DNA of 64,000 nt from Henricia sp. BOLD:AAB3569 (Eukaryota > Echinodermata > Asteroidea > Spinulosida > Echinasteridae). The first letter of the stretch is position 1, and every line of letters starts with the position of its first letter. Shown one piece after another: positions 22,001-61,000 of this stretch. Both the position numbers and the translations under genes were made by a program. Under the pieces are notes generated by a model that made no database searches, was not told the origin of the DNA, and worked only from the letters and a program-made list of their open reading frames with translations. The stretch covers positions 930,001-994,000 of the forward strand of contig JBBELK010000011.1 of the NCBI GenBank assembly GCA_037783545.1, given 5' to 3'.

Positions 22001-23134
22001 AGTTGGAAATAGTGATGATCGTGTTGTTGCTGGAGTTCACATAAACCATATACTCAGGTGAGACCCTATTAATTCATGCCAGTTTACAGCTATGATTTAC
22101 AGCTATGTGTTCTTAGCAAGAATAGCAGAACATCAATAAATTGTAATACACATCACATAATTTTGTTTGCACTCTTAACCCTATTATTATAAAGCAAACA
22201 AATTTTGAATTAAGCACATTTTTCTGCTAAACAGCTTCATGAAATTGGCCCCTCTGCGAATCCTCCGTGGAGTTTGAAATTGAATTCAACATATCTTGGT
22301 GATTCCAAGAATTACTCAACTGTTATGCCCAAACATTTCGGGAAGTACTTATGCAGCAACCCATTAGTCCTCAAAACGCCCAAACTGCCCTCCAGCTTTC
22401 TCCTCAAAGCGCCCAAAACCGCCCTTCAGCTTTCTCTAAACCCGCCCTGTATTTCTTCCATGTTCAACTCGGGTGAACATGGAACACACCCTCAATATTG
22501 ATAGGCATGTACTCATAGCTTGAGCTGTCGTCTTTCAGATCTTGTGTTCAGTAAGGGCGGCTACTAATTGACCTTGACAAGGAACATTACTGGGTATACA
22601 CCAATCCGGTAATAAGGTCTTCTTCCCTGTACATCCGCCATAGCTGGGGGGCTTCCACTGAATGAACTGTATGTTTTTGTTGTTGCTGAAGCTGCATTTG
22701 TTTACTTCGAACAAGTTGCGCGTCTTTGTAGGGTTGTGTGCGCGCGAAGGCGGGCGCGTCGCGTGTACGCAACGGCGGGCGCGTCGCGTGTACGCAAAGG
22801 AGGCTCGTTCGTGCATGTAATGGATGAGCGCTTTTCGTTCTAACAGCAACACAAAACGCACAGCCCATGCACTGGACGCCCCCCAGCTATGGCGGATATG
22901 CAGGGAGGAGATCTTAGTTACCGGATTGGTGTATTACCAAAAAGGTTTAAGAAGTAATAAGGCATGCAGCTTGTTACCAGTGAGTGCCATTGTGTTAAAT
23001 AACTGTTATCATTTGTTTGTTACCTAGCTATGCCGATGGCGAACTGACATTGACGTACAAAGGTGGAGCTGTGTGCAGTCACAATGGGTTCCCGCGAACG
23101 TCCGTTATTTCATTCGAATGTAACAAGACTGCAG

Positions 23135-23168
<34 letters not shown>

Positions 23169-29100: not shown

Positions 29101-32100
29101 TCTGCCCGGTGTGTCAGAGTCGGGGAAACCTGAGGGAGTATACCACTGTGCCTTATAGCTCAGCTGGTAGAACATCTGCCCAGTGTGTCAGATGTCTTGG
29201 GGAAAACCTGAGGGAGTATACCACTGTGCCTTATCATAGCTCAGCTGGTAGAGCATCTGTCTGGTGTGTCAAAGGTCTTGGGGGGTGGGGGAACCTGAGG
29301 AAGTATACCACTGTGCCTTACAGCTCGGCTGGTAGAGCATCTTCCCGGTGAGTCAGAGGTCTCCTGTTCAAATCCCGATAAGGCCTGTATGATTTGTCTC
29401 ATCCCAAGTTTGGTTGTTTCATTTCTATAGAATACTATAATGAATTTGTTTTACCAATTTCCACTGATTTATTCACTTTCGATTTTCCACGCAGACGGAG
29501 ATCGCCTTTCTGTGTGCCCCAGACCAAAACCCCGGCAAACCGGTGTTTATCTCAGAGGCTAGCAATGCGTATCTCTTTAACTGGTACACGAAATACGCAT
29601 GTCCCGAGGAACCCATTGAGTGTGTGGTCACCGATGATACAACACATGAACAATATGACTTGTCTAGGTAAGAGTTTTATATGAAGTAAAAAATTATTGC
29701 GTCGGTTGAAACGATTTTGAGTGGAAGTAGTTTTGCCCATTCACGACGCGGTATGCACTACATACTTAATACGTTTCCAGAGAACGAGCTAAAAATAACT
29801 TGGCCTGTTTGGGTGGGACTCGAACCCGCAACCTTCTGTATACTAGGCAGACATCTTGTTTTAAGAAGAGTTTTGTTTTAAAGGCCCACTGTACCGTAGC
29901 ATTTATAATGACCCAAAATATTTACTTCACGGCTTTACAAGAAAAAAACTAACTCAGAGTATTGATGGTAACAAACACCGCATGAATTGATAGACCGTAT
30001 CCAATAGCTGCCATCTTGTAGGGCAGCTTTTTATATTTAAATTGGTCAACAATGTACAGTGAAATTTGTCTATAGTGGCCACGGGACCCTAAAAAAATGG
30101 CCACTTGAAGAGGTGGCCTCTTTATAATGTTTCTTAAGTATTATACACATGGCATTTGGGACCAAAGGTGGGTGGCCACTATATGCAGGTGGCCTGTTTA
30201 TCAAGGTGGCCTTAATAGCAGGTTTCACTGTAAGTACACAATGTACAACCATGTACATGCATGTCCTCAAGGAACAAAGAAACTACTCTACAAGATGGCA
30301 GCTATTTGATACGGTCTATTTGAGCTGTGCTTTTTGTTTTTTCTTCACAGCTTGTCTAAATCCTTGGAGGAAGACAACTGGTCATTCGTAGACGACTCGG
30401 ATGCCCAAGGAAATCGCAAGAAGTATTACATCAATGTTTGCCGGCCCATCAACCCGGTCAAGGGTTGTGGCGCATTCGCTGGAGTCTGTGAGACGGTGTT
30501 TCAAAATGGCAAGGTACGAAGATGAAATCATTGTCGCAATAGAGTGCTGAACTGAAAACCTCGCCCTTTGTGTGTTGCCAAGGTTACTGGGTCTACACAA
30601 AAACCAGTGAACTGTTTCCCTGTGCTTTAGCAATGGACGTTTCAGATTACCAGTGAATGTTTAGACTCAATAAATCTGGGCAGCTGATGTCGCACTTTAG
30701 TAGTCTATGTGGTACTGTGCTTTGTCGACCCGAGTGATATTTGGGGTGCTGTTAGGGGGAATGCCACAATCTAAGTGCTGATAGGGTTGTGCGCCTTGAC
30801 CTGGTAGCCACCTAGTTGAAGTGAAATGGTTCTGGTGATTCCCTGATGGCAGCGGTAATAATGGCAACAGCGCCAGGAGTACCCTGTAGGGGGAATGCCA
30901 CAATCTAACTGCTGATAGGGTTGTGCGCCTTGGCCAGGCAGCCACCTAGTTGAAGTGAAATGGTTCTGGTGATTCCCTGATGGCAGCGGTAATAATGGCA
31001 ACAGCGCCAGGAGTACCCTGTAGGGGGAATGCCACAATCTAAGTGCTGATAGGGTTGTGCGCCTTGACCTGGTAGCCACCTAGTTGAAGTGAAATGGTTC
31101 TGGTGATTCCCTGATGGCAGCGGTAATAATGGCAACAGCGCCAGGAGTACCCTGTAGGAGGAATGCCACAATCTAACTGCTGATAGGGTTGTGCGCCTTG
31201 GCCAGGTAGCCACCTAGTTGAAGTGAAATGGTTCTGTTGGTTTTCCTGATGGCAGCGGTAATAATGGCAACAGCGCCAGGAGTACCCTGTAGGAGGAATG
31301 CCACAATCTAACTGCTGATAGGGTTGTGCGCCTTGGCCAGGTAGCCACCTAGTTGAAGTGAAATGGTTCTGGTGATTTCCTGATGGCAGTGATAATAATG
31401 GCAACAACGCCAGGAGTACCCTGTAGGGGGAATGCCACAATCTAACTGCTGATAGGGTTGTGCGCCTTGGCTGGGTAGCCACCTAGTTGAAGTGAAATGG
31501 TTCTGGTGATTTCCTGATGGCAGTGATAATAATGGCAACAACGCCAGGAGCACCCTGTAGGGGGAATGCCACAATCTAAGTGCTGATAGGGTTGTGCGCC
31601 TTGGCCAGGTAGCCACCTAGTTAAAGCGAAATGGTTCTGGTGATTCCCTGATGGCAGTGGTAATAATGGCAACAGTGCCAGGAGTACCCTGTAGGGGGAA
31701 TGCCACAATCTAAGTGCTAATAGGGTTGTACGCCTTGGCCAGGTAGCCACCTAGTTGAAGCGAAATGGTTCTGGTGATTCCCTGATGGCAGTGATAATAA
31801 TGGCAACAGTGCCAGGAGTACCCTGTAGGGGGAATGCCACAATCTAAGTGCTGATAGGGTTGTGGGCCTTGGCCAGGTACATGTAGCCACCTAGTTGAAG
31901 TGAAATGATTCTGGTGATTCCCTGATGGCAGTGATAATAATGGCAACCGTGCCAGGAGTACCCTGTAGGGGGAATGCCACAATCTAACTGCTGATAGGGT
32001 TGTGTGCCTTGGCCAGGTAGCCACCTAGTTGAAGCAAAATGGTTCTGGTGATTCCCTGATGGCAGCGGTAATAATGGCAACAGCGTCAGGAGTACCCTGT

Positions 32101-35100
32101 AGGGGGAATGCCACAATCTAACTGCTGATAGGGTTGTGGGCCTTGGCCAGGTAGCCACCTAGTTGAAGCAAAATGGTTCTGGTGATTCCCTGATGGCAGC
32201 GATAATAATGGCAACAGTGCCAGGAGTATCCTGTAGGGGGAATGCCACAATCTAACTGCTGATAGGGTTGTGCGCTTTGGCCAGGTAGCCACCTAGTTGA
32301 AGTGAAATGGTTCTGGTGATTCCCTGATGGCAGTGATAATAATGGCAACTGTGCCAGGAGTATCCTGTAGGGGGAATGCCACAATCTAAGTGCTGATAGG
32401 GTTGTGCGCCTTGGCCAGGTAGCTACCTAGTTGAAGTGAAATGGTTCTGGTGATTCCCTGATGGCAGCGGTAATAATGGCAACAGTGCCAGGAGTATCCT
32501 GTAGGGGGAATGCCACAATCTAACTGCTGATAGGGTTGTGGGCCTTGGCCAGGTAGCCACCTAGTTGAAGCAAAATGGTTCTGGTGATTCCCTGATGGCA
32601 GCGATAATAATGGCAACAGTGCCAGGAGTATCCTGTAGGGGGAATGCCACAATCTAACTGCTGATAGGGTTGTGTGCCTTGGCCAGGTAGCCACCTAGTT
32701 GAAGTGAAATGGTTCTGGTGATTCCCTGATGGCAGTGATAATAATGGCAACAGTGCCAGGAGTATCCTGTAGGGGGAATGCCACAATCTAAGTGCTGATA
32801 GGGTTGTGCGCCTTGGCCAGGTAGCTACCTAGTTGAAGTGAAATGGTTCTGGTGATTCCCTGATGGCAGCGGTAATAATGGCAACAGTGCCAGGAGTACC
32901 CTGTAGGGGGAATGCCACAATCTAACTGCTGATAGGGTTGTGGGCCTTGGCCAGGCAGCCACCTAGTTGAAGTGAAATGGTTCTGGTGATTCCCTGATGG
33001 CAGTGATAATAATGGCAACAGCGCCAGGAGCACCCTGTAGGGGAGAATGCCACAATCTAACTGCTGATAGGGTTGTGCGCCTTGGCCAGGCAGCCACCTA
33101 GTTGAAGTGAAATGGTTCTGGTGATTCCCTGATGGCAGCGGTAACAATGGCAACAGTGCCAGGAGTACCTTGTAGGGGGAATGCCACAATCTAACTGCTG
33201 ATAGGGTTGTGGGCCTTGGCCTGGTAGCCACCTATTTGAAGTGAAATGGTTCTGGTGATTCCCTGATGGCAGCGGTAATAATGGCAACAGCGTCAGGACT
33301 ACCCTGTAGGGGGAATGCCACAATCTAACTGCTGATAGGGTTGTGGGCCTTGGCCAGGCAGCCACCTAGTTGAAGTGAAATGGTTCTGGTGATTCCCTGA
33401 TGGCAGTGATAATAATGGCAACAGCGCCAGGATCAGTACCCTGTAGGGGGAATGCCACAATCTAAGTACTGATAGGGTTGTGCGCCTTGGCCAGGCAGCC
33501 ACCTAGTTGAAGTGAAATGGTTCTGGTGATTCCCTGATGGCAGTGATAATAATGGCAACAGTGCCAGGAGTACCCTGTAGGGGGAATGCCACAATATAAT
33601 TGCTGATAGGGTTAGAGTACCTTGTAGAGTAGACATATGTGTTATACAAGAATCCACCATTAACCAGTAAATGCCAGGATTATTTGTAGGCCCAGGTTTG
33701 TTTTAGTTAAAGAACTCACTAACTATGCACGGTAAAGTATTGTTGCACTGTCACTGTACATCCCATTTCCCTCAAGTTTAGACGTCAAACGCAGTAACAA
33801 ATTACCCCTAATCGTGTTTACTAGTCGTATGTTACACCAATGCAGAATTCATGGCGTGCTTACGCATTCGTCAATGTAACCATAAGGAAAGGTTTAATTT
33901 AACCTGTGTTCACACGCTGTTTTAACAGGAGGTGGAGAGCGTGAAATCCATGGGTGTACCCAAGACTAAGCCAATCATTGAGAGCTCGGGTCACCTGCTA
34001 CTGACGTACGAAAACGGCAGTGATTGCAACGGAGGCAAAGTGCAGAGTAGAATTCACTTCAGCTGTCGCAAGGGAGCTTTGGTAAAGAGAGACTTGGAAT
34101 ACAGGGGCCGATTGCAATAAAGAAAGTTGAGATGTCTTGAGACATCTTAACTAAGACATAAACTGCTTTTGTCGTGCAACAAAAAATGTTTCTTTTGCGG
34201 TTCAGTGTTTTAAAAAAATGCCGTAACTTGCATCTTGAGACACATAAAACTTAGGACACCTAAATTAAGTTATGACATATGATGTGTCTTAGACATAAGA
34301 CCGTTATATTGCAATCCACCCTAGACCTTTGCTTAAATGACCTTTGCCCAAAAATTGTAATCGGCTATTTTACCAACTGTCCAATGCAATGATACCGCCC
34401 AAGATGATATATTTTTATATTAAAGAACTGAAGATTTTTATATTAACGATAACTGAAGATTAATTGTGTGTGATTAATTTTGTGTGTAATTAATTAAAGT
34501 GTGTGGGCACATTTATGTTTTACATCGGTGCACTCATGTGAACGAGACTAGGCCCCTGACTACCATGGTATTATGGCTTTGTTTTCCATGCTAGGGAACC
34601 AGCCTAAATAGGCTAGGGAATAGGACATTGTCTTCTCACTATTTCTTGAAAGCATGGATGAGATACTGAGCTGACTTATGGGTCTTTCTATAAATTAGGG
34701 GTCCAAAAGTGTGACATTTAGTGTCCCCCGTTACACCTGATATGTGTTATTTTTCGTACAAAAATCATTAAAATGGATTTTAAACCATTTTTTATGAATT
34801 GTACTTTATGTACTCACTCTTTGAGATGGAAAGTATTTAAAGAATGTGTCCTGAATTTACAAAAACGAGATGTAAAATGTAACGGGGGACACCAACATTG
34901 GACCCCTAATTTATAGAAAGACCCATATACACAGATCGGTTTTTATCATACACATCCTCAATCATACAAAGAGAGAAAGGTGTTTGTAACAGTTTTTAAT
35001 CCCCATAAACTATCTTTAAATTGTTTTGGTTGTACAGGGAAGCTCACCACGACTTTTAGAGAAGGTTAATGACTGCGTATACTCCTTCATATGGGAGACG

Positions 35101-38100
35101 GAGGCAGCGTGTGCCATCAGTAGCTCCGACAGCTCTCAAGGTCAAGATTGCGCCGTTAAGGACCCTAATTCTGGTTACGTTTTCAACATGGAGACACTCA
35201 CTAAACCACCGGACAGTTCTTACAGCGTTACAGCGCCCTCTGGTAGTACGTTCCGGGTAGGTCATTGATCAGTTTGCCAGTTTGATACTGTACTCTTGCG
35301 CACGTAGCACACACGAGCAATCCATTCACTCAATGCACGTTTGCTTGGGTGCACCCAGCATGCACACGCGCATCATATTGGGGCTCTGAGCTTCACAGTA
35401 TCAGAAATGTCTGGTGCCCGCAAAAGCTTCATTTTATATAATAATTCCTTTTACTGGTCACCACTTATTCTTATGATGACTTAATAACCACCAAAACGTG
35501 TCAATATTTTGGAGGGAAGTAATTTTAGGCGTGAAAAACATTAAACAATTTCCTTGAAAATACTTTTTTTGCCATGTTCCGTAGACGTAACACACGGCGG
35601 CTCAGTGGCGACCAGTGAACGGAATTCATACCTAAAAGTCTGTATCCGTGCACTTGCGAAACCTCTCTAATTAATCTGTTGAGTTTACATTTTTACGCAC
35701 TCAGTTAAACATCTGCGGTAATGTGACGGGAAGTCCCTGCAATCAATTAAACAAGAACGTCCATGCCTGTAAATTGAATTCAGACCAATCAGTGGAAGAC
35801 ATTGGCTCAAAGACGGAAGGTTTAAAGTTTTCAGACGATGGGCTTTTGAAGCTAACATACACAGGCGCTGAGACACAAAGCGGTAAGTACCATAAATAAC
35901 TGCGGTAAAATGCAGTCGAATCTCGGTAATAAAAGCACTGTTAATATGACATTATGGTTATAACAAGGACAAATTTAGGTCCCCTCAGTATACACCAATC
36001 CGGTAACTAAGGTCTTCTTCCCTGTACATCCGCCATAGCTGGGGGGCTTCCACTGAATGAACTGTATGTTTTTGCTGTTGTTGAAGCTGCATTTATTACT
36101 TCGAACAAGTTGCGCGTCTTTGTAGGGTTGTGTGTACGCGAAGGCGGGCGCGTCGCGTGTACGCGAAGGAGGCGCGTAGCGTGCATGCGGAGGGGGCGCG
36201 TCGCGTGCATGCGGAGGGGCGCGTCGCGTGCACGCAGAGGGGGCACGTTCGTGCATCTAATGGATGAGCTCTTTTCGTTCTAACAGCAACACAAAACGCA
36301 CAACCAATGCATTGGACGCCCCCCAGCTATGGCGGATATACAGGGAAGGAGACTTTCGTTACCGAATTGGTCTATAGCTTAGTTCAGTTTGGTTGGGTTC
36401 GGTTCAGTTCAGTACAATACTGCTCAGTACATGGGCCAATATCCTACAGCTGTTAAAAATGTGCTGTAATGCAAAATTTGTTTGCTTTTTAAAAATGGGT
36501 TAGCAGTCAAAATCTTATGTGATGTGTATTGCAATGGACTGGTGTTCTGCTATTCTTGCTAAAAACACAAGTTGACACACAATTTTGACTATGAATCCTA
36601 TTTTAAAATTCAAACAAATTTTACGCTTTTGGCCCCAGTGCATAATTTATAGTTAAAATTAAAACAAACTCTGTTTATTTTATCCAGGTAACAAATTAAA
36701 GACCGAAATCACATTCCTGTGTCGTCGCAATGCCTCCCTGAGCGCCCAAGGCCCCACATTCCTTAGATTTGAAGGCGACACGACGTACGTCTTCAACTTT
36801 GAGACGCCACTCGCCTGTTTGCCGGAGTCCGTCGATTGTCTCGTGTCAGACGAAAAAGGCAACCAGTATGACCTTTCACCCCTTGCAAAGGATTCTGGGA
36901 ATTGGGAAGCGGTTGATACGCGGCAAGGCAAGAGCTTAAGTTATTTCATCAATGTTTGTCGGCCGATCAACGCGGTCGGCGCGGCCACCCAATATTGTCC
37001 AGGTTAGTTATTCATATCAAACTCTTGTGTGGTGTGTGTTGTAACTAAATTTTCTTAAAATGTTGTGTGAGTAAAATGTCTGAAAGGACTTACGTAATTG
37101 GTCGGCTTAGCTTAGAACAATTAATAAAGGAAATGTTAGTATTAAAGTATGCCAAATTGGATATTTTCCACCATGTTGTACAGTATTTCATATTTTCTCT
37201 CACAATTGAAATTTGCTCTGAAAATTAGAATCTTTCTCCTTCCAAAGTTATGTAGCAGACCTCGACATCATTTTTAAAATGCTCAACCTTGATTTTCAAA
37301 AGTCAATGAGGTTAACTGGGGGTTACAAATGTGTATACAAGCTTCATGGAATTATAGGGCATGCTGGCCAAGTTGGCCTCAGAAAACGTATATCTTGAAG
37401 GGGCATCGGGGCCAACTCAGCAAGGCATGAGGCCATTGACCTCGGTGGCATTTGTTAATGTCAAGGCCTGGGATAAGGCGTGCGTGCCAAATTGGCCTCA
37501 GAAAACGTATATCTTAAAGGGGCATCGGGGTCAACTCAGCAGGGCAATGAGGCCATTGGCCTCAGTGGCATTTGTTAATGTCATGGCTGGGATAGGGCAT
37601 GAGTGCCAAATTGGCTTCAGAAAATGTATATCTTGAAGGGGCATAAGGGTCAACTCAGCAGGGCAATGAGGCCATTGACCTTGGTGGCATCGTTTACTGT
37701 AAAAGCCAATATTTTCGCGTACATATATTTTTGCGCATTTCAACATCACTGACATTTTCACGAGTTGTTATTTTCGCGGATGGAAATTATGTCACCTTAA
37801 CAGTGATCGCCACAATTGTTGCAAACAATATTTTCGCGGGTTATTTCCGCGGGCTCTGTCTGGTGCGCGAAATGCGAGTAAATAAAACCACCGCGAATAT
37901 TTCAGCTTTTACAGTATGTCAAGTGAAATAATGCATCCATCTAATTTTGGCTATTTTCCCCCCCTAGGAGGGCCAATCGGGGCATGCCAAACCTCCTCAG
38001 ACAAAGCCTTCAATATGGGCTATGTTCAGGCAATGCCTGAAGCGTCTGCTGATGGTTCTCTCAGTGTACGTTACGTCAACGGCGACATATGTCATGGCAA

Positions 38101-41100
38101 ATACCATCGCAGCACACGCATCAACTTTGAATGCTCAACCACACCGGTATGTTCCTTTCTATTTTTTCTTCATACTTCCAAATGTTTTCTTGACCACGTG
38201 TGTTTATTCCTACACCATTCACAGTAAGTTCGGTATCTTGTGTTTTTGGACTTATTTTTCTTTTCAAATGACCGTTTTCACCTTTCTGTGACAAGGTGTC
38301 TGTCATGCAGATACAATTGTCTAATCATATATACAAAATCATTCAGTCGAGAGCCGATAAAAACCACAAGTCCATGACAAGTCCATGACAAGTCCCACAC
38401 AAGTCCAGTAACAAGAAGCAAAGGATGAACACGCACAAAAGAATGGCTTTGTTGGAGTTCATTTAAATAGCTTGTGACTTGAATTAAGACCCAGGGACTT
38501 GTGGTGGACTTGTGGTGGACTTGTGATAGACTCGACTTCAACCCTGGTATAATTGTTATTTAAATTGCAGTTCTGTGAATAGTGCTTTGTGTTAGAATAT
38601 GTGCTTTATAAATATTATTATCGTGGTTTGTTGTCGGCCATTGAGCCTACAATCAATTTTTTTTGTTTCTTGTTTTTATTTTTCTGTACAGGGCTCGCCG
38701 GTGTTTCAAGACGAAACAGAGAGCTGTGAGTATGTGTTTGCATGGGAGACGCCAGCCGCATGTCCACTTAAGGTTAGCCTTTCATACAGTAGATGAATTT
38801 CAAATTTTTAAAACTGCTGGTCTCGGTGTTTTCTTTTGTGATAAATTTTACAAATTGTGTTAATACATGATTATTTTAGGGATTATGACCACATTTGGCG
38901 ACCACATTTTCACTGGCCCTAATGCCCAACCTATCAGCACTTACATAGTGGCATTCCCCCAACAGCTTTCAAATTATTGCTTGGTTGGACGAGACGATTG
39001 AGATTAAGTGTCTTGCCAAGGGACACAGAAACTGGCCATAGTGGGGTTTGAACCTACAACCTTTGGGTTACAAGCACAGACGTGTATCCACTGGATCACG
39101 TAAACTCGCAAATTTTAAATCATAAGTTTTTAAAGGAGCGCAACTAGATCTCATTTTTGAACTCCCCATTTCCATGGGTTTAAAAATTTTGATACCATAT
39201 CACGTGTCATATTTTCAACATTACCATTCAAAAAAATCGGGGGAAAAAAAAAAAAAACCTTTTTGCTTCCACATCCAAATTGGAGATTGCAAATTTAGTG
39301 CTGTTTCTCATGGATAATATTTTTGGGGAGGTATTTTATTTGATTTTTAGGTAAAAACGAAATCCATTTTATGGATCAACTTAACTGTTGTTAAACACCA
39401 CAGAGAGTCACAGGAACTGACTGTACCGTGAAAGTACCCAACTATGATTTCCAGTACAACCTGATGTCTCTTCGTAATACCACAAGCGATTACGTCGTCA
39501 CGGTGGCAGAATACAAGTATCGGATTAACGTCTGCGGTCCGTTGGTTGGAGGCACAGAGGCTTGTGCGGGGGGAACAATCGGAGCCTGTCAGATAAAGGA
39601 AGGGGCGAATGGTTTTATTAATAATGCAGGTTGGTTTGCACATCTTGTTTTAGAGAACATTTTCCGCGATAAACAGAGTTTTCAACTAAAAAAAAGTTTC
39701 AGTGAATGATACTAGTACAGGCACTTGGGTTTCACGCACTCGACCGCTCGGCCATAACACCCCATAAAGGCTCAAATTTTCTTCATATTCACTCCTGTAG
39801 AGTGTGCGAAAATGTTTCTTGAAATTACAGGATTCAGAAATGTTGGAGTTAAAGTAAGATTTCTATTTTCTTTAATATCAGTCTATATTGATTTCTTGGT
39901 AATATTCCCATTATTTATGGCATAACACACAGGTGTATTTAACAAGAAACTCCTATACGATGACGGTGCCCTAAAGTTAAACTACACCAGTGGCGTAAAG
40001 AACTGTCATTCTAAAACATATGAGCGGTCGACTGCCATCACGTTTTTCTGCGATGAAGGTGTACAAGGCAAGTATAACAGTAATGTACCAGTTGCACTAC
40101 ACGTAATTTGCAGTTGCCCAAAATTTTACTTCACGAGTTGACTATAAAAACGCAACTAAAATTGCTGATAACAATGGTAACAAACCTGATTTTTTTTGTA
40201 ACCGTTAACAATTTTACCTTTGTGGAAGAAATTGCCAACTGAAGGTGTTTTTCTGAAGAAAAAACTAAATTATTATTTGCACATTATTTGTTTCCATTCA
40301 TTCAACACAAAAACCATGCATGGATTTTTCAGGTTTTCTGAAGTATTACTGCATCTATGTGGCTAAAATTTCTACAGGGCAATTTAACGACATTATTCTT
40401 CAGTTTAATACGTAATGCTGTTGTTTTGTTTTTGAACATTTTCCAATCATGTAATCTGTCTTTAAGCACAATGTCTCCTGTTTGTTGTATACACTTCTTC
40501 TTCACAACAGGCCGAACCCCAGTGTAGGTTTCATGTGAAGACAGTTCAATGTTTGATTATCCAATGTTTATAACCATTTTTCCACAGGAACCGGCAAACC
40601 CTCCTTTATCAATGAAGATTCAGATTGTACCTATGTCTTTGAATGGGCCACGCCATTGGCTTGTCCTCCTTTTAAGGTAGGCATGGCATCTTCGGCAACT
40701 AAGGCCCTTTATGCCATCAAATATACAGTTTTTGGTTAAACTATACGTTTATTATCAACTTGAGATGACGAAGAAGGAGTCGCAGTTGTAGAAGTTGGAG
40801 GAAAAACCCCAGAGAAATCCCCGGGGGAAAACCCACGCAGTCAAGTAGGGACTGCAAACCCAATCCACATACACTCCCAGGGATTGAACCAAGGATCGAT
40901 TTCACAAAAGTTAAGACGAGTTCATTACATCCTAATTCCCATACCAACGTCCCAAGATAAGAAGAGTGACCCTTCCTAAGATGCGTCTTAGCGCTTTGTG
41001 AATTTTACCCCTGGTCATGTATTCAAATCAAGTAACAGGTCTCGCCAGTTACTACAAATTATGAACTAGCCACCGAGACCTGGGATTGATTTTTTCTAGC

Positions 41101-44100
41101 ACTTCAACATTGAAAAAGATACAAATTTTTAACCACCCCTTTTCCCCTTCCACAGGTAATAGAATGCAGTTACAGCAATGCGCAACAGCAGTTTGACTTG
41201 GCGCCATTAGCCCGCGTCGATGATAACTATCGCATTGATCCCAAGGGGACGGTTGGAGACAGCGTTTATTACATTAATGTGTGTCGCTCGTTGCTTCACA
41301 AGAAAGGTGCTCAAGGTACGTGCACAACATGTTGAGTTCAGGAAAGCTTAGTGGTATATTAGCAATTATTTTCTTTTCATCTTATATTTTTTTAAGGGGG
41401 CCTTTCAACATTTTCACAGTCGCATAAAGCATACAAATGCAGGGTGGGGGGATTGCATTTAACTGTACATGCACTGCAATATGCTGCCTTTTCATGGCAT
41501 CATCATCATCATATCCGACTTTAAGTCGCTTGTCCAGTATCCGCTGGGTCCGACTTGGGTCTCTTTATGGCGCATCTCCACTGGGCTCGGTCCTGGGCGT
41601 CCGTCGACTTGAGGCCCAGTAACTTCATATCAGTCCTCACCACATCATGCCAGGTCTTCTTCGGCCTTCCCACAAAAAAATGTTTATAAGTAGTATTTCG
41701 GGGGAGGGAGGGGTTCTTGAAAAATACTACTCTCTGCACGACCATGAAAAAGATTGGACAGTCAAAAGTTAAGTCGAAAGTGTACAAAGGTATTAATTCT
41801 AGGTGTCACTCAAGTACAATTATCACAATTTCAAGAATTACATTTTGTCCTCTTGTATTGCAGGTTCTGGCTGTCCATATAATGCTGCTGCATGCCTTTA
41901 CAAAGACAACGGGTAAATAACGAAATTTGAATAATTTAATGTGCAAAAAATAACCCAAGATAGTATGTCAACAGAGAGAAGAAAAAAATACCAACAAACA
42001 AAAAACATTGACCATTGTATAATTTGCATTGACCCAAATTTTTACTTCACGAGTTGACAAAAAATTACTCCGTGTTGATAGCAATGGTAACAAACGCCAC
42101 ACGAATTTGTATCTGTCCAAGATAGTAATTTCTTTAAAAAAATAAACAAAACTTTGTGTGCACGCACATTTTGTTATGATTCATGGATTCTGAAGGTTTT
42201 CTGAAGCATTGCTGCATCTAAGTAGCTAACATTTCTTCAGGCTAGTTTACCAACATTCTTCCTTAGATATGTTACACTCTTATTTCACGATTCTGTAAAA
42301 ATTGTCATTTTCCAAATGATACATTGGGTCTTTAATCTACAGAGTTTTTGGTCCTTTTCTTTTAGCTATATAAGTCTGGGGGAAGTCAGTAGCGGACCGA
42401 CCATGGAGAATGGTCATCTAGTCTTGAGGTACGAATCCGGTGCCCCATGCTCCTCAGGAGACGGGAAGAAACGCAGCTCAGTGATCAGTTTGGAATGCGA
42501 TAAGGAAGGAGTGGTAAGATTAAGACCTGTGTTTCTGTTTTCTCATAGTTGTGTCATCTATGAAAAATTCTATGGGCCTTATTGAGAGTATACCACTGTG
42601 CCTCATAGCTCAGCTGGTAGAACATCTGCCCAGTGTGTCAGAGGTCTCGGGGAAAACCTGAGGAAGTATACCACTGTGCCTCATAGCTCAGCTGGTAGAA
42701 CATCTGCCCAGTGTGTCAGAGGTCTCGGGGAAAACCTGAGGAAGTATACCACTGTGCCTCATAGCTCAGCTGGTAGAACATCTGCCCAGTGTGTCAGAGG
42801 TCTCGGGGAAAACCTGAGGAAGTATACCACTGTGCCTCATAGCTCAGCTGGTAGAACATCTGCCCAGTGTGTCAGAGGTCTCGGGGAAAACCTGAGGAAG
42901 TATACCACTGTGCCTCATAGCTCAGCTGGTAGAACATCTGCCCGTGTATCAGAGGTCTTGGGGAAAACCTGAGGGAGTATACCACTGTGCCTCATAGCCC
43001 AGCTGGTATAGCATCTGCCTGGTGTGTCAGAGGTCTTGGGAAAACCTGAGGGAGTATACCACTGTGCCTCATAACTCAGCTGGTAGAGCATCTGCCCAGT
43101 GTGTCAGAGGTCTTGGGGAAAACCTGAGGGAGTATACCACTGTGCCTCATAGCTCAGCTGGTGGAGCATCTGCCTGGTGTGTCAGAGGTCTTGGGAAAAA
43201 CCTGAGGGAGTATACCACTGTGCCTCGTAGCTCAGCTGGTAGAGCATCTGTCCGGTGTGTCAGAGGTCTTGGGGGAAACCTAAGGGAGTATACCACTGTG
43301 CCTCATAGCCCAGCTGGTTGAACATCTGCCTTGTGTGTCACAGATCTTGGGGGAAACCTGAGGGAGTATACCACTGTGCCTTATAGCTCAGCTGGTAGAG
43401 CATCTGCCCAGTGAGTCAGAGGTCTTGGGGGAAACCTGAGGGAGTATACCACTGTGCTTTATAACTCAGCTGGTAGAACATCTGCCCGGTGTGTCAGAGG
43501 TCTTGGGGGAAACCTGAAGGAGTGTACCAATGTGCCTCATAACTCAGCAGGTAGAGCATCTGCCAAGTGAGTCAGAGGTCTTGGGGGAAACCTGAGGGAG
43601 TATACCACTGTGCTTTATAACTCAGCTGGTAGAACATCTGCCCAGTGAGTCAGAGGTCTTGAGGAAACCCGAGTGAGTATACCACTGTGCCTCATAGCTC
43701 AGCTGGTAGAGCATCTGCCCAGTGAGTCAGAGGTCTTGGGGGAAACCTGAGGGAGTATACCACTGTGCTTTATAACTCAGCTGGTAGAACATCTGCCCGG
43801 TGTGTCAGAGGTCTTGGGGGAAACCTGAAGGAGTGTACCAATGTGCCTCATAACTCAGCTGGTAGAGCATCTGCCCAGTGAGTCGGAGGTCTTGGGGGGG
43901 AAACCGGAGGGAGTATACCACTGTGCCTCATAGCTCAGCAGGTAGAGCATCTGTCCCGTGTGTCAGAGGTCTTGGAGAAACCTGAGGGAGTATACCACTG
44001 TGCCTCATAGCTCAGCTGGTAGAGCATCTGCCCAGTGTGTCAGAGGTCTTGGGGGGGGAAACCTGAGGGAGTATACCACTGTGCCTCATAGCTCAGCTGG

Positions 44101-47100
44101 TAGAGCATCTGCCCAGTGTGTCAGAGGTCTTGGGGAAAACCTGAGGGAGTATACCACTGTGCCTCATAGCTCAGCTGGTAGAGCATCTGCCCAGTGAGTC
44201 AAGAGGTCTTGGGGGAACCTGAGGGAGTATACCACTATGTGCTTCATAACTCAGCTGGTAGAACATCTGCCCAGTGAGTCGGAGGTCTCTGGTTCGAATC
44301 CCAATAAGGCCCATGTGATTTCATCGTGTGTTTGGTTATTTCATTTCAATGGTACCATTATTGCGTTCAGGGTAATTTGAGAAATTCAGACGTACACTTC
44401 AAAGACTTTGAGTGCTTATAAAGCTTCACGTTTTTAAGTTGTCTGAATTTAAATACAAGTTTCTTAGGCGCGAGGTCAAAATAGAAACGGTATGTATACC
44501 GGGAAACGGTACATAAACGATACACCGTTGCACGGTTTTCAGTGAACAAGCAAACCATTCAACTTGTCTGGCCAGACGATAGATAATTGGCAATGTTCAA
44601 CCCGGCTTGCGTTCGCTGAACAATAGAGAGCTTATCGGATTACTGGCCATTGTGTGACTACTCCTGGCTGACTCGCTGCCACTATCACATGACCGCCTGA
44701 ACAAGGGTGTTTAACCACAACCCATTCATGCCCTGAGGTGCGCCCGGCTGGAGGGTCAGGCGGCTCCCTTTGAAGTCGTTGGCCAGTAGCAGCCTTTAAT
44801 TCCCTTCGCGCAGGCGGCTAGTTGTAAACCTGTCAATCATCGACCAACTCAGTAAGTTGGAAACGGTTCCCTGCAAACCCTCACACGGTTTTCTGTCAAC
44901 AGAGAAACGATTTAAAGAGGGATTAACTCGAATCGTTTACCAGTATACAGACCGTTTCTATTTTGACCTCGCGCCTTAATCATTATTAATGGAAGTGTAA
45001 TTCTTGAAAAACTTATTGTTTTCTTGCAAATCAAATCTCAAGTCTTTGAGAGCTTGTCTCAATTCAAGTCTCAAATCTTCAAATACAAATCCCAAGTCAT
45101 TTGAATCACGTACTGACTGCTCATTATGCCTACTGGTATGTAAGGGCAGCAACGAAGGAGCGCCACTTCGGTCTGCTCTGGACCAGCCTCTGGATGGTGC
45201 CCCACGAGTGGTTCAGTGTCTTCATCTCGGTCTCTACCGTACGCCTCCAGGTGTTCTTGGGTCTGCCTCTCTTCCGTCTTCCCTCTGGTGTCCAATGAAG
45301 CGCCGTGCGGGAAATTTTGTTCTGTTCATTCCTCAAGTCCGAGTCAAGTCTCAAAATATTGTGACTCGAATGTGACTCAAATGTGACTTTGAACAAATTT
45401 TATGTGGAATTTGTCTTTGAGTTTTTGATTTGACGGTATTTCTTTGTCCACAGGGAAGCACACCCCAGTTCAGTTATTCAAGTAATGACTGCGAGTATCA
45501 CTTTCTGTGGCTAACCAATCTGGCATGCACCATCAATGACGAGAAAGAAGAATTGGCTGATGATTGCACGGCTGTTAATCCTGCTACTGGTGAGAATAGA
45601 CTACTAAAGTGAAAACGTCACCCTTTGTGTGTTGCCATGGTTTTTGGGTCTACACTAAAACCAGTGAACTGTTTCCCTGCGCTATACCAATGGACGTTTC
45701 AGATTACCAGCGAATGTTTAGACCAAATTACCATGGCAACCTACGTCACACTTTAGTAGTCTATAGCAGCAAAATATTACTAAATATTATAGATATAGCC
45801 GGTCGAGTGGTTAAGACGTCTGCCTAGTTTGCAGGAGGTCGTGGGTTCGAGTCCCACCCGAGCACGCTATGAAGTTTTTCATAGTGTCTTGGGAAAGCTC
45901 CGAGTATACAGTGTTAATAATTACGTTGGGTAAGGGCAAAACAAACCCTAATAATTAACATTCAGTCTCCCTGACGCAAGCTAAATCCATTTCTAATCTG
46001 TTCTTGTTCCAACAGGTTACAAGTTTGACATAAACGTTCTAGGAACCCCCAACGGCCAGGGGTACATCGTGCACAGTGACAAGGGGCATCAGTATACCTT
46101 CTCCCTGTGTGCACCACTTAAAAACTCCGAGTGTGCTGGAAATAATGTTGGTAAGAAATCATCAAGTGGTTAATGGGCCTTTTGCATGGGCGGCCATTGT
46201 AGGGGTCATGTTGTCTTATTTAAAGGAGCGTGTCCAGATCACATTTTTTAGTGCCGGCATTTTCTCATTGGTGTTGAGATTTTGATATCACAATTGTCAT
46301 ATTTTTCTCATTACCATTCTGAAATTTCACGCTCTCAATCCATATATTTTCACGGATATCGTAAAAAAACTACCAATGTTTTGTAAACTAATTTATCCGG
46401 TTCCATAAAGCAGTGCAGTGATTACACCAACCTTTTTGCTTCCACATCCAAATTGGAGATTGCAAATTTTCTGTTTTCTGTTTTCTTCTCATGGATAGTA
46501 TTTTGGGGAGGTATTTTATATGATTGTTAGGCTAGAACGAAATCCATTTTCTGGAGTAGAGACATGGAATGCGCTATGTAATATTTACATATTTAAAGAA
46601 ATAAACATCACCTTCCCAGGTTCTTGTCAGACGGAAACCGGAACAACAAACCCGCGCTCGTTCAGCGCTGGTAATTTAAACCGCAAACTGCACTTCCATG
46701 ACGGGACTCTTTTCCTAAACTACGAGGGAGGCGCGCCATGCCACAATGACGCATTCACACGTAGCACGATTATAAACTTCGTCTGTTCGCATGAGAGGGG
46801 CGCCATCGGGGAACCGGTGTTTGTAGACGAATCTGAAGATTGTACGTACTACATCTCCTGGCACACTGGACTCGTTTGTGAGAATTTTGTAAGTAAACTA
46901 AAAAATGCCACAGTTAGAGTTAAAAAATTGTGAATTTAGACGAAGTAAGTTTGTTAAAAATGCGAAAAATGTAATTAACATTCTGGTCAGTACTCGGGTA
47001 TGTCTACAATTTTTGGGTACTACCCGAAATTTTCATTGTAGTTTGGTATTTTAACGATCCTGTATCAGCTACTGACTTCAAGAACTGGGGCCAATTTCAT

Positions 47101-50100
47101 AAAGCTGTTTAGCAGAAAAAGTTGCCTAATCCAAAATGTGTTTGCTTTATAAAAATGGGTTAATAGTCAAAATTGTATGTAAACTTGTGTTCTTAGCAAG
47201 AATAGCAGAACACCAGTGAATTGTAATACACATCACATAAGATTTTGACTGCTAGCCCATTTTTATAAAGCAAACAAGTTTTGGATTAAGCAAAATTGGC
47301 CCCCCGGTCGCAAAACTTGACCTAGACTACTAAAATTGCATTCATTTCACATGGTTGGGTCACATATGTGCATTCTAGAAGACTGCAAAAATATAAATAC
47401 ATAGCTACAAAAATTTAGTCTGGTTATCTGGATACTAAGCACAGACTTGAAACCATTGTTTTCTCTGCACAGATCCAATGCAGTGTCGTCAATGGGTCAC
47501 AGGTCATTGACCTTTCCCCCCTGGTCAGCGAGCGTGGCTACTACCTAGCCAATTCGGACACGTCCGACCGACAGTACTACATCAATTTCTGTCGCCCTTT
47601 AAACCCTATTCCTGGAGTCAGGTGCCCTCCGGGTTCGGCCGCATGCGTGGATAAGGACCACACCCAAACGGTATGTGGGGATTTGGGGTTTTTCCATTGG
47701 GAACTAGACCTATAGGTAAAGGTCGTGCTTGTAATTACAAGCCGGAGTGCCGATCTCTCTTTCATTAGCAAGGGGGCCAGACTCCTCTGTCGAGTTTGCT
47801 GTGGGGGGTTCGACACTCCTCCCACACAGCGAGTCTGTTTACCTTCCCAGCATGATGCTGGTACCCATTTATACACATGGGTGGAAAGAGGCAAGTGAGG
47901 CAAAGTGCCTTGCCCAAGGCCACAAGACACTAGTTGAAATCGGACTCGAACCTGCAATATTCAATTAAGAGTCAAGTGCTCTAACCATTACATTACATTT
48001 CTTCCCTTCAGGCCATTTGTGGCCGCTATGGCCTCTAAAGGGTTAATACCACAAATTTATTGGCATTTTTTAGCTTACTTGGATTTTCTGCTTGCTTGTA
48101 GAAACACAGTTTCCTTGGAAAATATGTACCAGGCCCGTAACCAGCGAGTTTTGCGGGGGGGGGGGGGGGGGGGGGGATCGAATAGTGCCGTCAGGCACTA
48201 GTTTTTAAACAGTAAAATGCCGGCTATATACATCACACCAAAACCACTTAGCGGTACTAACTTTTTCAAATATTTGGATATATTTATTCTCAATATCCAA
48301 CTGGCTATATTGTGCGACGAAAAATTTAATTATTCAAATTATTGAATTTTTATTTTGTAGAGCGGAACTCCCTGTTCCGCGGGGGGGATCGTCCGATCCA
48401 CCAGATCCCCCTGGTTACGGGCCTGCGTACGGTGAAGCATCAAAAGTAGTACTCAAGATTTCTGACGGACCAAAATAAATATATTTTTCTCTGGTTGTAT
48501 CCTGGATGTTCAACAACCAAACAAAAATGTTCTTAAATTTTCAGAATCTGGGAAGTCTATTTGAAGGCCCCAAAATCAGCACGGATGGTCGTGTCAGCAT
48601 CACCTACGTGAATGGATCACAATGCAAAGATGATAAGACTAGGAATATCTCAACGGTAGTTACGCTGTTCTGTGAGAGAGGAACATCACAGGTAAGGGTA
48701 GAAACATCGGTGGTCCTAAGACTGGATTGACAATGAGCCTTGTCACTCTTAAATTTGATATGTCGCTTTGAGAAGAAGTGGCATGGCAAGAATTTGTGAG
48801 TGAAATGAAATGACTCAATGAAAACTTCAGCATGAATTTTGTAAATTTTGTAATGTTTTAATGTTTTAATTAAATATTATGTGCGTCGTTTCACTCCAAA
48901 TTCCCTCAACATCATTTTTTTTTTTCAAGCGACACGTCAACGTGTGAAAAGGCTCAATGTGCCCTTAAAAACAATTCCATAGCTCGACAAAATATTTGAC
49001 CTTATTTCATATAATTGCGATTTTTAACGCATTCTTGGGAATAGCATTTAACATGTAGTGCATATCCTGCATCGTGTATGGACAAATAACATCCATTTAA
49101 CAAAAAATAAAACTTTATTGATTTTTCACGTTCCAGGGGACACCAACATTGGACGATGAAAGCAACTGCGTCTACCACTTTTCCTGGCCGACCAACGCCG
49201 TTTGTCCCCCCTCCAAGTCCTCACAAAGCAAGGATTGCAAGTATTTTGACGACAGATTGCAGTACGAATATGATCTAAGCTCACTGGCAACCAACGAAGT
49301 TCAGGTATTGTTGAATGCCGCAATTTTTAAAGTCTTTTATAAAGTTTAGACGCATGCGGACAAGCCCGCCCCATAACAACATGGGATTCCCAGCCATCTT
49401 CAAAATGAGGGAAACCTAAAAAACAAGTTTCCCTTTTTCCAGTCAGAGAAAAGTCGGAATCTGAAACAAAAATTCAAGGATTTTGATTGGCCCAAAAGAG
49501 AAAGTCGTCAGTTTATTTTTTGTTTAAACAGGGTATTCACTGGCAGAGCGGTCTAGTGAATCGTATTCAAAAATTGGGTTAGTTCCAAAGGTAGTGAGTT
49601 CGAATCCCGGTCCGGCCCATCCATGGTGCGTGTACCCCTTGAGCAAGGTACTCTGTCACGCATTGCTTCTCTCCACCCAGGGGTAAAATGGGTACGTGGT
49701 GCTTGCACTGGGGAAGGAAACTGCAGACTCGAGCAGTAGTCGGCTCTATCACCGGGTAGCCTATAAAACAAAATGGAGGCTCAAAAGCCAAGGAGTTGGG
49801 AGATAAGCACCCGCGGAAACCATGCATGCCCCTTTTTTTCCACTGGATTCACAGGATGAATGGTGTGTTTAACTGGAAATAGGTCAAAACACTAGTCATG
49901 GGATTTTAAAAATCGGGGGAAAAAAACAACTTTTAACTGCATTACACAACACCCTGGACCTACAACCTCCCGAAGGAAGAGGCAGGTGTAATTGCTTAGT
50001 AGCCAAGTACGAGCACAATTTTTTTCATACCTTATATTTCTCAAAATTTCAATTTTTAAAAATGTTTTCCCCTTCAGGTCAAGGATCCAGACAATCGCGA

Positions 50101-53100
50101 CTATTCCCTCCATCTTTGCGGCTCTGTAACCAGCTCGGACAGTGCTTGTGCTAACTCCGCAGTCTGCGTGAAAAGCGATGGACAGAGCTCCTCACTGGGT
50201 CTTCTCGATAAGCAGTTGTTCTCTATCGAGGGGCACATTCTCAAAGCACAATACACATCCGGCTCGCAATGTGTACAAAGTAAGTACCTATTTTTATTAT
50301 TACATGAGCGTGACCAGATTTGTCAAAAAAATTGATTTCGTTCTAACTTTACCAATCATGTAAAATACCTCCCCGAAATACCATCCATGGGAAGAAAAAA
50401 TGAAATATACAATCTCCAATTTGGATGTTGAAACAAAACAATTGGTGTAATCACTGCACTTCTTTATGTAACCAGATAAATTAGTTTACAAAACATTGGT
50501 GGTTTTTTGCCGATATCCCTAGAAATATACAGATTGAGGGCGTGAAATTTCAGAATGGTAATCCGAAAAATATGACACATGATATGGTATCAAAATCTCA
50601 ACACCCATGGGAAAAATGGGAGGCTCAAAAATGTGATCTGGTTACGCTCCTTTTTAGGTGTTCCATATATATAGTGCACTATTCATATGAACGTGTTCAC
50701 ATGCGCTGCACATAGTGGAACTCATGAAGCGTGCATTTATCTTCCACCTAAACATCAAGATACATAGGTGGGTGGAGCCATTGGCAGCCAACGGCCAGAG
50801 ACACCGGGGAATCCCCTTACTCTTCACGAAAGGATCTTTTACGTTTGTTACACAACACACTGGACCAACGGCTTTACAGCCCTTCTAAATGATGGAGCAA
50901 TTGTGGTTAAGTGCTTTGCTCAAGGGCACAGGTATCACAACCGGGTGTCAAACCCCACACCAAGTTTTGACCCAATGTTGTGAGTTAATGACCCAAACCA
51001 CTCAGCCACAGTACCCCTTCTTGAAGTATGAAGCTCTCGTGAAATGACATACCTTTTTACTTCTTATTTTGTGCAGGTTTTTCCAAGAAGAGACAAACCA
51101 CGATAATCTTCAAGTGCTCAGAGACCGTTATGCCCAACCAGCCCACATTTTTCTCCGTAAGTTGTTGTTAAAAGCAATTTCCAATCAAATATTCACTTCC
51201 CTCCCATAAAACAGTCTCTTGCAACAGTCAAATGACTGTTTTCACCTATTCCTCTGACAAGGTATCTGTCATGCAGATACACTTCATTCAAGCGGAATGC
51301 ATACCCTCAATAAAATATTTGCATATACCCACAATATCCCTAACTTATTGAGAGTAGTATATAAATATAAAGATGTATTTATATAGATGCGTGTGCGCAA
51401 ACAATTATTTATAAGGGCGCCCTCGTTACTGGACTTGTGCGGGACTTGTGCGGGACTTGTCACGGACTTGTGATTTTATCGGCTCTGGACTTGTGATGGA
51501 CTCAACTACAATGCTGTAACATTTCCTGACAAACCTGTGTCTTACATGAATCGCATTTTGAAATCGTTTCTCCAACAGTCTGACTACAACTGTAACTACG
51601 TGTTTCAGTGGGAAACACCGCTGGCCTGCCCGCCAATGAGCATGCCCTGTAACCTCCCGTACAGTGAGAAAGCCTACGACCTACAACCTCTATCCCAGAT
51701 CACAGGCAGTTGGCAGTTTAAGGATGACGATGGAAACACGTTAGTACATGCGCAATGTTGAACCTCAGTAGTGGCACTTGTTGAACCTTGCGCAATGTTG
51801 AACTTTTAGTGGCACTCGGCCCTTTTTTTTCTTTCTATTTTTTTTAATTGATTCATTCTCACTCACTGGCCAATTTAAATGTTGGGCGAAAATTATTTTT
51901 GGCATCAAATCGCAATAGACCATTTGCATAGGCGGCCATGACAGGGGGCAATCACATTGTCACTGTGTGTCATGCATGAGTAGGCACTTTGTCACATCAT
52001 TTAAATATGAAAACCTACCCCCTGTCATGGCCGCCAGTGCAATGGTTCTATACCAGCACAGAGAACTATCAAACAGTTATACTCGGGTTTTTTAGTATGG
52101 CATATGGCATCGTGGGGTACCGTGGCCGAGCGGTTTGGGTCATTGACTCGCAATCATAGGTGAAAACTTGGGGTTGCGGGTTCGAATCCGGGTGCGGTAC
52201 CTGTGCTCTTGAGCAAGGCACTTAACCACACTTCGGAAGGGATGTAAAGCCGTTGGTCCAGTGTGTTATGTAATGGTAACGCACTCTAAAGATCCCAGAG
52301 CATTCTTTCGTGAAGAGCAAGGAGATTCCCCGGTGTCTCTGGCCATTTCTAATTCTTCATGCTTCCTCACGCTTGCGAGTGACAGTGCAATGAGCACTAT
52401 TGAGGAATCCTTGGTATGAATACCAGAAAGAAATAATAATAACTAGAGCTTCGCGTTTGTGTTTTTTACAAACGCAAGGTGATCGGGTGACATAAACATT
52501 GAAATGATGATGACGACACAGTTTTAAATTGTTTGAAAACTTGAGTTGTTTGATGTTGAAAAAGTATTGGAATTCTCAAGACATGACTCTGACTATTCAA
52601 CGCTAAAATTGTGTATCTGATGACGTCATAATTGTCAATCTCATCATAACGTTACTATTGTGTGCACAGATTGTTCAAGTATCTACTGAAGAACAAGTTT
52701 TGACATATAGGCCTAGGCCTATATGTGGTGAAAGAATCTTTTCAATATCTATTACAGTTCTAAAGATTTTGTCATTTGAGATCATATTACTGTAGTATAT
52801 CGCCGTGTGGGGAGTTGGGGTTCAATTGCATCTAGATTAAACTGACGCTTCAGTCAACTTGAGTTGCGGTCCACCATGTCCATTTTATTTCCAACACAGC
52901 AACGATTTCCAGCATGTCACATTCACAGTTTTCGGTGAGAAGACATATTTACTCTGGTCCGCCGACTAAGGCTAGCCGTAAATAATTACACCCAAGATAC
53001 AACAGCTAAGTCACCAAAAGTAAATGTCCTTGTGCTATCTAGTGTTTATTCAACTTTCCTGGCGATGATGCCACGGAAACTAGCAGTTTTACATCTTCAA

Positions 53101-58000: not shown

Positions 58001-61000
58001 TCAATCAATGTCAAAGTCATTTCATAAATAAGCAATTAATATAATCGGTTAAGATAAACTCCTCAAAAAAGTTCGGAAAGTCAAGTTTGACTGACGATTT
58101 ATCTCTTGTTGCAAAATAATTTTCCTTGAATTTTATATCATTGGAAAGCCCTGTTATTCCTCTTTACGATGATGTGTCATTTGTTATGATTAAGCAATTA
58201 GGGGATGTGCAGCACAGCTGAATACGGGGGCGGGTGTAAAGTGAAATGTCACAAAATGCATTGCTATTGTCAAAAAGTGCATTGACACATTCCCATCCTC
58301 CAAGCAAAAGGGGAATGCACTGCATGACAATAGCAGTGAATTTTGTGGCATTTCACTTTCCACCCACCCCTGTATTCCGCTCCACTGCACATCCCCCAAT
58401 TGATTAATCATAACAAATGACACATCACTGTAAAGAGGAATAACAGGGCTTTCCAATGATACCAAATTCAAGGAAAATGATTTAGTAACAAGAGAGAAAT
58501 CGTCAGTCAAACTTGACTTTCCGAACTTTTTTTGAGGAGTTTAGTTGGATATATACATTATTTTGGTTTATCACCAATGAAGCCTGAAGCCTGCAATTTT
58601 TGTTGAATTATTATTCCTGCAGAGTTGCCGTGGAGCTGAAAGACGGAAAAGTGACTGATCCAGAGACTATGACAACCTCTGACCTTTCACCTCTCATCAA
58701 ACATGGGTATGATTAACATCAAAAACCTGTCTTTTAGCGCATGCTCATCTCAAGAAATTGGTTTATCTTGAAAGTTAACGCATGTTGTGCATTGCTTACT
58801 GCTTACCAGTCTATTAAAATGCCAGGGGCATATTTGACAGAAAACTACTTTCAAGCATGGCTATGAAGTTGGCCCCTCGCCCCTGATCTATTCTTAATCT
58901 TTTTTTGTACATTGTGACGGCAGTAAAATACTTCATTTCCCTGTGTACTGCACTTGTATTTTTTTCCACATGAATTCAGGTACATAACTGTTGATGTAAA
59001 CAAGGCAAGGATAAATAATGTTATATTTTGTTTGATTTAAGTCATTTCTTGTAACTTGGATACCTTGCAACATCAGAAATAACCCACATGTCCAAGCTCA
59101 CCCAAATTATACATACAGGAAGAGTTTACTTGGACAGTTACTAGTACATACACATTGAAGGATTTTGTTTCATGATAAGTTTAAATCTGGCCTTGAAATG
59201 ACGACAACCCAATAAACTTGGTTTCAGACGCTGGGAAGCCCAAGGCGACGAGCGGATCGAGAAAGCGGGACAGCAATCAGTCTACAAGTACATCATCGAC
59301 CTCGCTAAGACAGACAAGCCAGTCGATCAAGACACGAACGGTGTCTGTAATACGGCAGCCGTCTGCCAGAGTAAAATTGATGATCCGTTCTTCAGAAATA
59401 TCGGCGAGAAAACTCGAGTAAAGTACTTCATGAAAGGTGGGTAAATTGATCAATATAGCAGGGTTATAGTCGACTTGTGATAGACTTAACAGTCACTCCT
59501 AAATGCCACGCAGAAAAGCATGCCATGTACACACTCACTCACTCACTCAGTCACTGTACAATACTGTACTTGTAGCGCACACGTGTACTACCGACTTAAC
59601 ACGAAGATCTTCGGTTTCATGCGGAAGTGCGCAAAACGGGCTAATGTGAAATTCGTCTATTGTGGCTTTTTCTGGCACACGCAAGGTTTTGAAAACTGTC
59701 TGTTTTCTTTTTGTCTTCAAATAGATGAAGTTTTAGAGATGGTCTTCACCAATCCTAAAGCTTGTGGCAGAGACAGCACAGAAGACGTGGAAACTACAAT
59801 AAAATTCATTTGTGATCCCAATGCTAAATTGGTGAGAATTTGCCCTTAATTTCATCTAAAACCCTCACAGTAAACCTTCATCATGACTCCACAATTGTTT
59901 TTGGCAAAGCATCCCAACATTGACCCCGTTCTCACTACTAGAGAAATCGCTTCGTTCGACGAAGATTAGTAAATCATCGTTAGTTAATAAAGCTTGCGTT
60001 CATATATCACTTAACGAAGATCAAACGGAGATCGGTACCGTACACATTATGTCGCGCGTCTAGATGCGCTGTGTGGTTTTCCAGTGGCGCGTCAAAAACA
60101 ACGCTTGCTGGGCGCTTGACACACAACGTGCTTGTGCAACCAGGCCTGCCAAATTGCTTCGTCGAACGAAGGGAGCCGTTCTCATCACAAATTTGCTTCA
60201 TCGAATGAAGCGATGTCTTCGTCGAATGAAGCTATTTGCTTCATCGAATGAAGCTATTTGCTTTATTGAATGAAGCGATTATAATCATCGTCGAATGAAG
60301 AGGTGTGCGTTCACATCAGAAAAACTCTTCGCGAATCATCGTTTAATCATCGTTGAACGAAGCAATTTCTCTAGTGAGAACGAGGTCAGTGACAGTTTTA
60401 TACATTTATCACAGAAAGAAATAATGACTGCGAAGTTCCCCTGAATTATGAAAAATATGCTGAGTTTCAATGAATAATTAGAAGAAAAACTGAATTTGAT
60501 TTAAATGAATTCATGCAAAAATTTTCTGACTTTTTTCTTCTTTTTTTTTACACATTTTTAGGGTCAGCCAGTTTTTAACTACGAATCAAGTAATTGTCAG
60601 TACTACTTTATGTGGGACACTTCTCTACTGTGTCGAACAACGTAAGTCGCAAAACCCCCACGTTAATTATTTTATTTATTTATTTGATACTGCTCTGTTA
60701 ACTTCTCACCAGCAGGTAAACTCAGAACAGACCAACAACCATGGTAAACTTTCCCTGGGTTTTGCTGATCGATGCTTTTACAGTAGTTATCCTCAACGAT
60801 AGGTTTTAAATAATCACCAACATTTGACTCAAGGCCGTCTTAAAGCTGGCAGTGGTGAAATCTAAGTCTAGCCAGAAGGATGAACAATTAAAATAATTGC
60901 CATTTTAGTGGTTCAACTTGTAACTTTACTGAGACCCACATAACTTTACTGAGACCCACATACTTGTGAGGACTTACAGGGCCTTGTAAATAGTAAACTG

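Follow-up and report, generated by a model that had tools for sequence, protein, structure and literature searches.

Domain 11 of an echinoderm CI-MPR/IGF2R carries the four residues of a phosphomannose-binding site

Domain 11 (D11) of the CI-MPR/IGF2R gene of the sea star Henricia sp. BOLD:AAB3569 carries Gln, Arg, Glu and Tyr, the full set of residues of a mannose 6-phosphate (M6P) site. We hold with moderate confidence that D11 of this echinoderm receptor is most likely one of several domains that bind phosphomannose as P-type lectins. The DNA analyzed, hereafter the window, is a stretch of 64,000 nucleotides (contig JBBELK010000011.1, positions 930,001 to 994,000 of the forward strand). 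Coordinates are positions in the window, and the gene, exons and codons described are on its plus strand.

Results

D11 is spread over three exons. Exon 26 (45454-45589) encodes the end of D10 and the first residues of D11, with the first Cys of the domain at 45565-45567, exon 27 (46016-46150) encodes the N-terminal half, and exon 28 (46620-46888) encodes the C-terminal half together with all four lectin residues. A sequence-only reading of this DNA had placed the domain at 46016-46888, which is exactly the latter two exons, the first Cys being on the exon before. Its claim of a complete Gln/Arg/Glu/Tyr site was borne out for 4/4 residues: Gln is encoded by CAG at 46628-46630, immediately after the Cys at 46625-46627, Arg by CGT at 46760-46762, eight residues before the Cys at 46784, Glu by GAA at 46829-46831, four residues before the Cys at 46841, and Tyr by TAC at 46847-46849, two residues after the same Cys. 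As it had also asserted, the spacing of these residues is equal to that of D9, both the human D9 and the D9 of the window; the loop preceding Arg has one residue more than its counterpart in human D9. The domain contains eight Cys, the number needed for four disulfides. When the protein encoded by exon 28 (89 residues) was compared with bacterial/archaeal and viral contigs, no relative was found, as expected because this is an animal gene.

To score the four residues, we required Gln after Cys4, Arg eight residues before Cys6, Glu at -4 or -3 from Cys7, and Tyr two residues after Cys7. The rule was applied to the 15 domains of the window and to 16 mammalian reference domains, which include no D15. 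In the window, the score was 4/4 for D5, D8, D9 and D11, 3/4 for D3 and D15, and 2/4 or less for the other nine. Among the mammalian domains, D3, D5 and D9 scored 4/4 and the D11 of human and opossum scored 0/4, while echidna D11 reached 1/4 solely through a Glu at -3 under the loose rule for Glu. Four or more full domains arose in 1.2% of 100,000 shuffles in which each column was reshuffled among the 15 window domains.

The full sets of D5 (exons 10-12, 27200-29667) and D9 (exons 20-22, 39404-40676) resemble those of human D5 and D9, the Arg of D5 hinging on the choice of the donor at 27929. D15 (exons 38-41, 58623-60641) has Gln, Glu and Tyr and is without Arg at -8; human D15 is also reported with three of the four residues. 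D8 (exons 18-19, 37968-38772) has all four and constitutes a second lectin-type site without a mammalian equivalent, human D8 keeping Tyr only. D3, which runs from exon 5 into exon 7 (21880-24859), has Gln, Arg and Tyr and is without Glu at -3/-4 (TKTEC, 24786-24859). Residues at lectin sites thus turn over, because mammalian D3 binds M6P although the D3 of the window is without Glu. The carbohydrate-binding domains of mammalian CI-MPR are four, namely 3, 5, 9 and 15, according to PMC7481795; D8 and D11, which carry the residues in the window, are not in this set.

The CI-MPR/IGF2R gene occupies 16954-62523, and 43 exons covering D1-D15, the transmembrane helix and the tail were placed by tblastn, a splice model and PDB alignments. 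The exon cores were located by tblastn and the splice sites were picked by a simple score; the unplaced part of the model is its 5′ end, that is, the signal peptide and the start of D1. The joined reading frame has 2350 residues and a single, terminal stop, and encodes 15 tandem MRH domains in collinear order followed by the transmembrane helix and cytoplasmic tail (exons 42-43, 61186-62523). The tail carries two acidic-dileucine-like motifs and ends in [11 protein letters not shown]; reading the sequence by eye, we found the single transmembrane helix and the acidic-dileucine-type tail of CI-MPR/IGF2R. Window D1 (second half, from query residue 81) to the end of D5 formed one continuous alignment with bovine residues 129-774 (486 bits), D6 into D10 another with bovine 775-1456 (486 bits), and the start of D11 aligned at bovine residue 1525. 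Because these alignments are collinear, the domain numbering is correct, and the number 11 given in the sequence-only reading is upheld. The gene order also rejects D11 as a mis-numbered D9. With the Pfam CIMR repeat (PF00878), D11 scored 50.7 bits against a cut-off of 22.5, and a search of the 740.7 Mb assembly with this profile gave 22 matches, all on the contig carrying the window (C11) and on contig C399.

Several repeats lie in this region. Positions 24300-24584, in the D3 intron, duplicate 285 bases of the D5 intron/exon sequence at 26992-27276 with 98% identity; in the 40 kb retrieved of C399, this sequence has only one full match and, elsewhere, an 85% match over about 124 bases. A 78-base tandem array of about 22 copies lies at 42586-44288, and a unit similar to it forms an array at 28892-29362. 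By eye, the 78-base unit resembles a tRNA; no tRNA was predicted in the window by ARAGORN. At 30753-33613, in a D6 intron, about 21 copies of a 134-base unit form a tandem array. Elsewhere in the assembly, contig C955 contains COX1 three times at a spacing of 16,221 bases, as if the mitochondrial genome had been assembled as a repeat, and contig C2104 contains one copy. COX1 reads AAA as Asn (at FSTNHKDIG and DRNVNTTFFDP, which we take to be conserved sites), ATA as Ile and AGA as Ser, corresponding to mitochondrial code 9, a code that occurs in flatworms too. Taken together with a CI-MPR of 15 domains, this code identifies the animal as an echinoderm.

The sample is one animal with two haplotypes, and C399 carries the same CI-MPR gene on its minus strand. 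There, matches with an identity of 90 to 100% were obtained for 42 of the 43 exons; exon 43 lay outside the retrieved DNA, the end of which also cut exon 42. AG/GT splice flanks were present at 38 of the 42 matched exons, and the other four comprise two with trimmed match starts, the cut exon 42, and exon 1, whose start is arbitrary. Over 2222 codons (exons 1-41), C399 and C11 differed by 115 synonymous and 48 non-synonymous codons and two indels, with no stop, and pN/pS was 0.123. For D11, pN/pS was 0.25, calculated from few changes (8 synonymous, 7 non-synonymous). Six residues of D11 differed between the haplotypes; every Cys and the four lectin residues are unchanged, and the codons of these four are identical in both.

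Window D11 is probably the orthologue of mammalian D11; the gene order decides for this placement, and masked trees support it. In a maximum-likelihood tree of 30 domains, window D11 grouped with human, opossum and echidna D11 with a support of 93, and the support was 95 when the four lectin columns were masked. The C-terminal half alone (31 domains) also clustered with mammalian D11 (support 80), and the tree of the N-terminal half alone (27 domains) gave no resolution. A wider cluster of D11, D3, D5 and D9 appeared in both the unmasked and masked trees with a support of only 11 to 39. Masked identity to the 16 mammalian references was 42.3% for opossum D11, 38.2% for echidna D11 and 34.1% for human D11, and the best reference other than D11 was human D9 (33.1%). 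In the first PDB search, the highest-scoring of these chains were the D11 of opossum (84.5 bits), chicken (80.2) and echidna (73.6), followed by human D5 (68.7 bits) above human D11 (62.3 bits). The AU test rejected none of the placements of window D11 with D9 (p 0.36), D5 (0.19), D3 (0.24) or window D9 alone (0.43); an affinity to D8 was rejected (p 0.007).

The mammalian D11 structures (human 6z32 and 2v5o, opossum 2l2g, echidna 2lla, bovine 6um1) agree with window D11 in receptor position and in having eight Cys, and the two share an NPATG-like start and a SWHTxLxC-like end. Exon structure was compared as well: window D9 has an intron right after the CD loop, whereas window D11 is one exon from the CD loop to the end. 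In mammals, the CD-loop Ile (mouse I1565, human I1572) and Gly1619 are both on exon 34, according to PMC6684648 and PMC3585325, and by that account the human CD loop and Gly1619 share one exon as in window D11. Because the exon structure of D11 differs from that of D9, an ancient conversion between the domains, which the AU test permits, is the less likely course.

We next compared the four lectin positions with human D11, whose numbering was verified at Y1542, F1567, I1572, Y1606, G1619, L1629 and K1631. This verification confirmed the assertion of the sequence-only reading that Phe1567 follows the Cys, and its placement of Gln at the Phe1567 position is correct when the alignment is anchored on that Cys. 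While human D11 has Phe, Tyr, Asp and Leu, window D11 has Gln at Phe1567, Arg at Tyr1606, Glu at Asp1630 and Tyr at Leu1636. According to PMC7467306, the D11 contacts of IGF2 are Phe1567, Leu1629 and Tyr1542 for Phe19, Lys1631 for Leu53, and Tyr1606 and Ile1572 for Thr16. By this alignment, the lectin positions coincide with published IGF2 contacts at Phe1567 and Tyr1606, two of the four, and Asp1630 sits between the contacts Leu1629 and Lys1631. These correspondences are new in that the sequence-only reading covered Phe1567 alone. That Arg falls on a contact and Glu between two contacts supports an IGF2 pocket that reuses the lectin pocket.

The contacts themselves are unmatched in window D11, which has Gln, Arg, a gap and Ser at Phe1567, Tyr1606, Leu1629 and Lys1631, respectively. 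Human Tyr1542 aligns with Ser or with the adjacent His depending on gaps, and the CD loop of the window is six residues longer than that of human D11; because the loop lengths differ, Tyr1542 and Ile1572 are without a clear counterpart. In echidna D11, Phe and Tyr are already found at the Gln and Arg positions.

D13 (exons 32-33, 50078-51156) is without the FN2 insert that mammals carry in this domain (site at 50279-51077): the bovine alignment skips from 1902 to 1953 between query residues 379 and 381, and tblastn of an approximate human FN2 piece gave no convincing hit within the window (best E 0.29, minus strand). Genome-wide searches for the fn2 and insulin families gave no match; since the controls were also unmatched, they are uninformative on absence. 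In mammals, contacts of D13 increase the affinity for IGF2 about tenfold, according to PMC7481795.

Regarding the supply of ligand, pieces of CD-MPR (M6PR) on contig C497 show, by eye, the P-type lectin spacing of Arg eight residues before Cys and Tyr two after Cys seen in D11. CD-MPR differs in being a single domain, and in human CD-MPR the Glu is farther from the Tyr. The same genome gave one match to the regulatory domain of GlcNAc-1-phosphotransferase and one to NAGPA. Because these three components are present in the genome, the M6P tag is probably made in this animal.

Discussion

If D11 works as a lectin domain, Gln, Arg, Glu and Tyr would line the mouth of the β-barrel and grip the mannose ring, and D11 would add to the multivalent capture of M6P-tagged lysosomal enzymes carried from the Golgi to the lysosome. 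The set of sites would then differ from that of mammals and might be larger, comprising D5, D8, D9 and D11, and perhaps D3 and D15. In bovine D3 and D9, changing Arg to Ala or Lys is reported to abolish M6P binding (PMC3632087).

The residues of D11 might instead have been kept after phosphomannose binding was gone, leaving a relic or a domain that binds another glycan, such as a phosphodiester or plain mannose. We consider this unlikely, though it deserves some weight. The loops near the site differ from human D9 by at least one residue, and pN/pS is higher in D11 than overall, on few changes; on the other hand, the six residues that vary between haplotypes spare the four lectin residues and every Cys. 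It is very improbable that the site was regained in the echinoderm lineage, with D9 or some other lectin domain having overwritten the C-terminal half of D11 through conversion. The AU test permits an affinity to D9, D5 or D3, D9 is the best match other than D11, and the first PDB search ranked human D5 above human D11, but the half holding the four residues clusters by itself with mammalian D11, and D11 is without the intron that D9 has after the CD loop, mammals having the CD-loop Ile and Gly1619 on one exon according to the papers cited above. We give hardly any probability to an echinoderm D11 that already uses this pocket to bind an insulin-like peptide. The domain retains its receptor position and an MRH sequence signature, yet the four human contacts Phe1567, Tyr1606, Leu1629 and Lys1631 are unmatched and D13 has no FN2 insert. 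Furthermore, PMC8805411, citing a book chapter, states that the CI-M6PRs of invertebrates do not bind the insulin-like peptides of invertebrates.

Returning to D11 as a lectin domain, we infer, for the retention as well as its date, that the four residues represent a retained ancestral state and that mammalian D11 lost the lectin site. Retention is preferred over regain partly because other MRH lectins share these four residues. In the line to mammals, the four residues would have been lost, the mouth of the pocket would have turned hydrophobic, and the IGF2 pocket would have been assembled on the vacated positions. The location of the IGF2 site at the sugar-binding end of the barrel was noted earlier from structures. 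The sequence-only reading had proposed that the IGF2 pocket arose by converting a lectin loop. The coincidence of pocket positions agrees with this proposal; a direct conversion is less certain, since Phe and Tyr are already present in echidna D11. PMC6684648 ascribes the gain of IGF2 binding to changes of the CD loop that are linked to an exon splicing enhancer in monotremes. Because of this link to the CD loop and of the echidna residues, the lectin site may have been lost in one step and IGF2 binding gained in another, rather than both in a single conversion.

A wider scenario seems to us evenly balanced: D11 of the deuterostome ancestor would have functioned as a phosphomannose lectin, and the IGF2 pocket of mammals would be an exaptation, with every lectin residue exchanged (Gln to Phe1567, Arg to Tyr1606, Glu to Asp1630 and Tyr to Leu1636), the lectin set being 5, 8, 9 and 11 in echinoderms and 3, 5, 9 and 15 in mammals. 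Among the matches listed in the open-licence literature, viewed as titles and beginnings of abstracts, there was no D11 with all four lectin residues.

The origin of IGF2 capture by a receptor of lysosomal enzymes is the basis of the imprinting conflict story. The literature covered here tells this origin from monotremes onward, and the window adds the state of the pocket in a non-vertebrate. These results suggest that the set of lectin domains of CI-MPR varies between phyla and that the hormone pocket derives from an old sugar pocket, and with the differing residues named, the switch from sugar to hormone becomes testable in one small domain.
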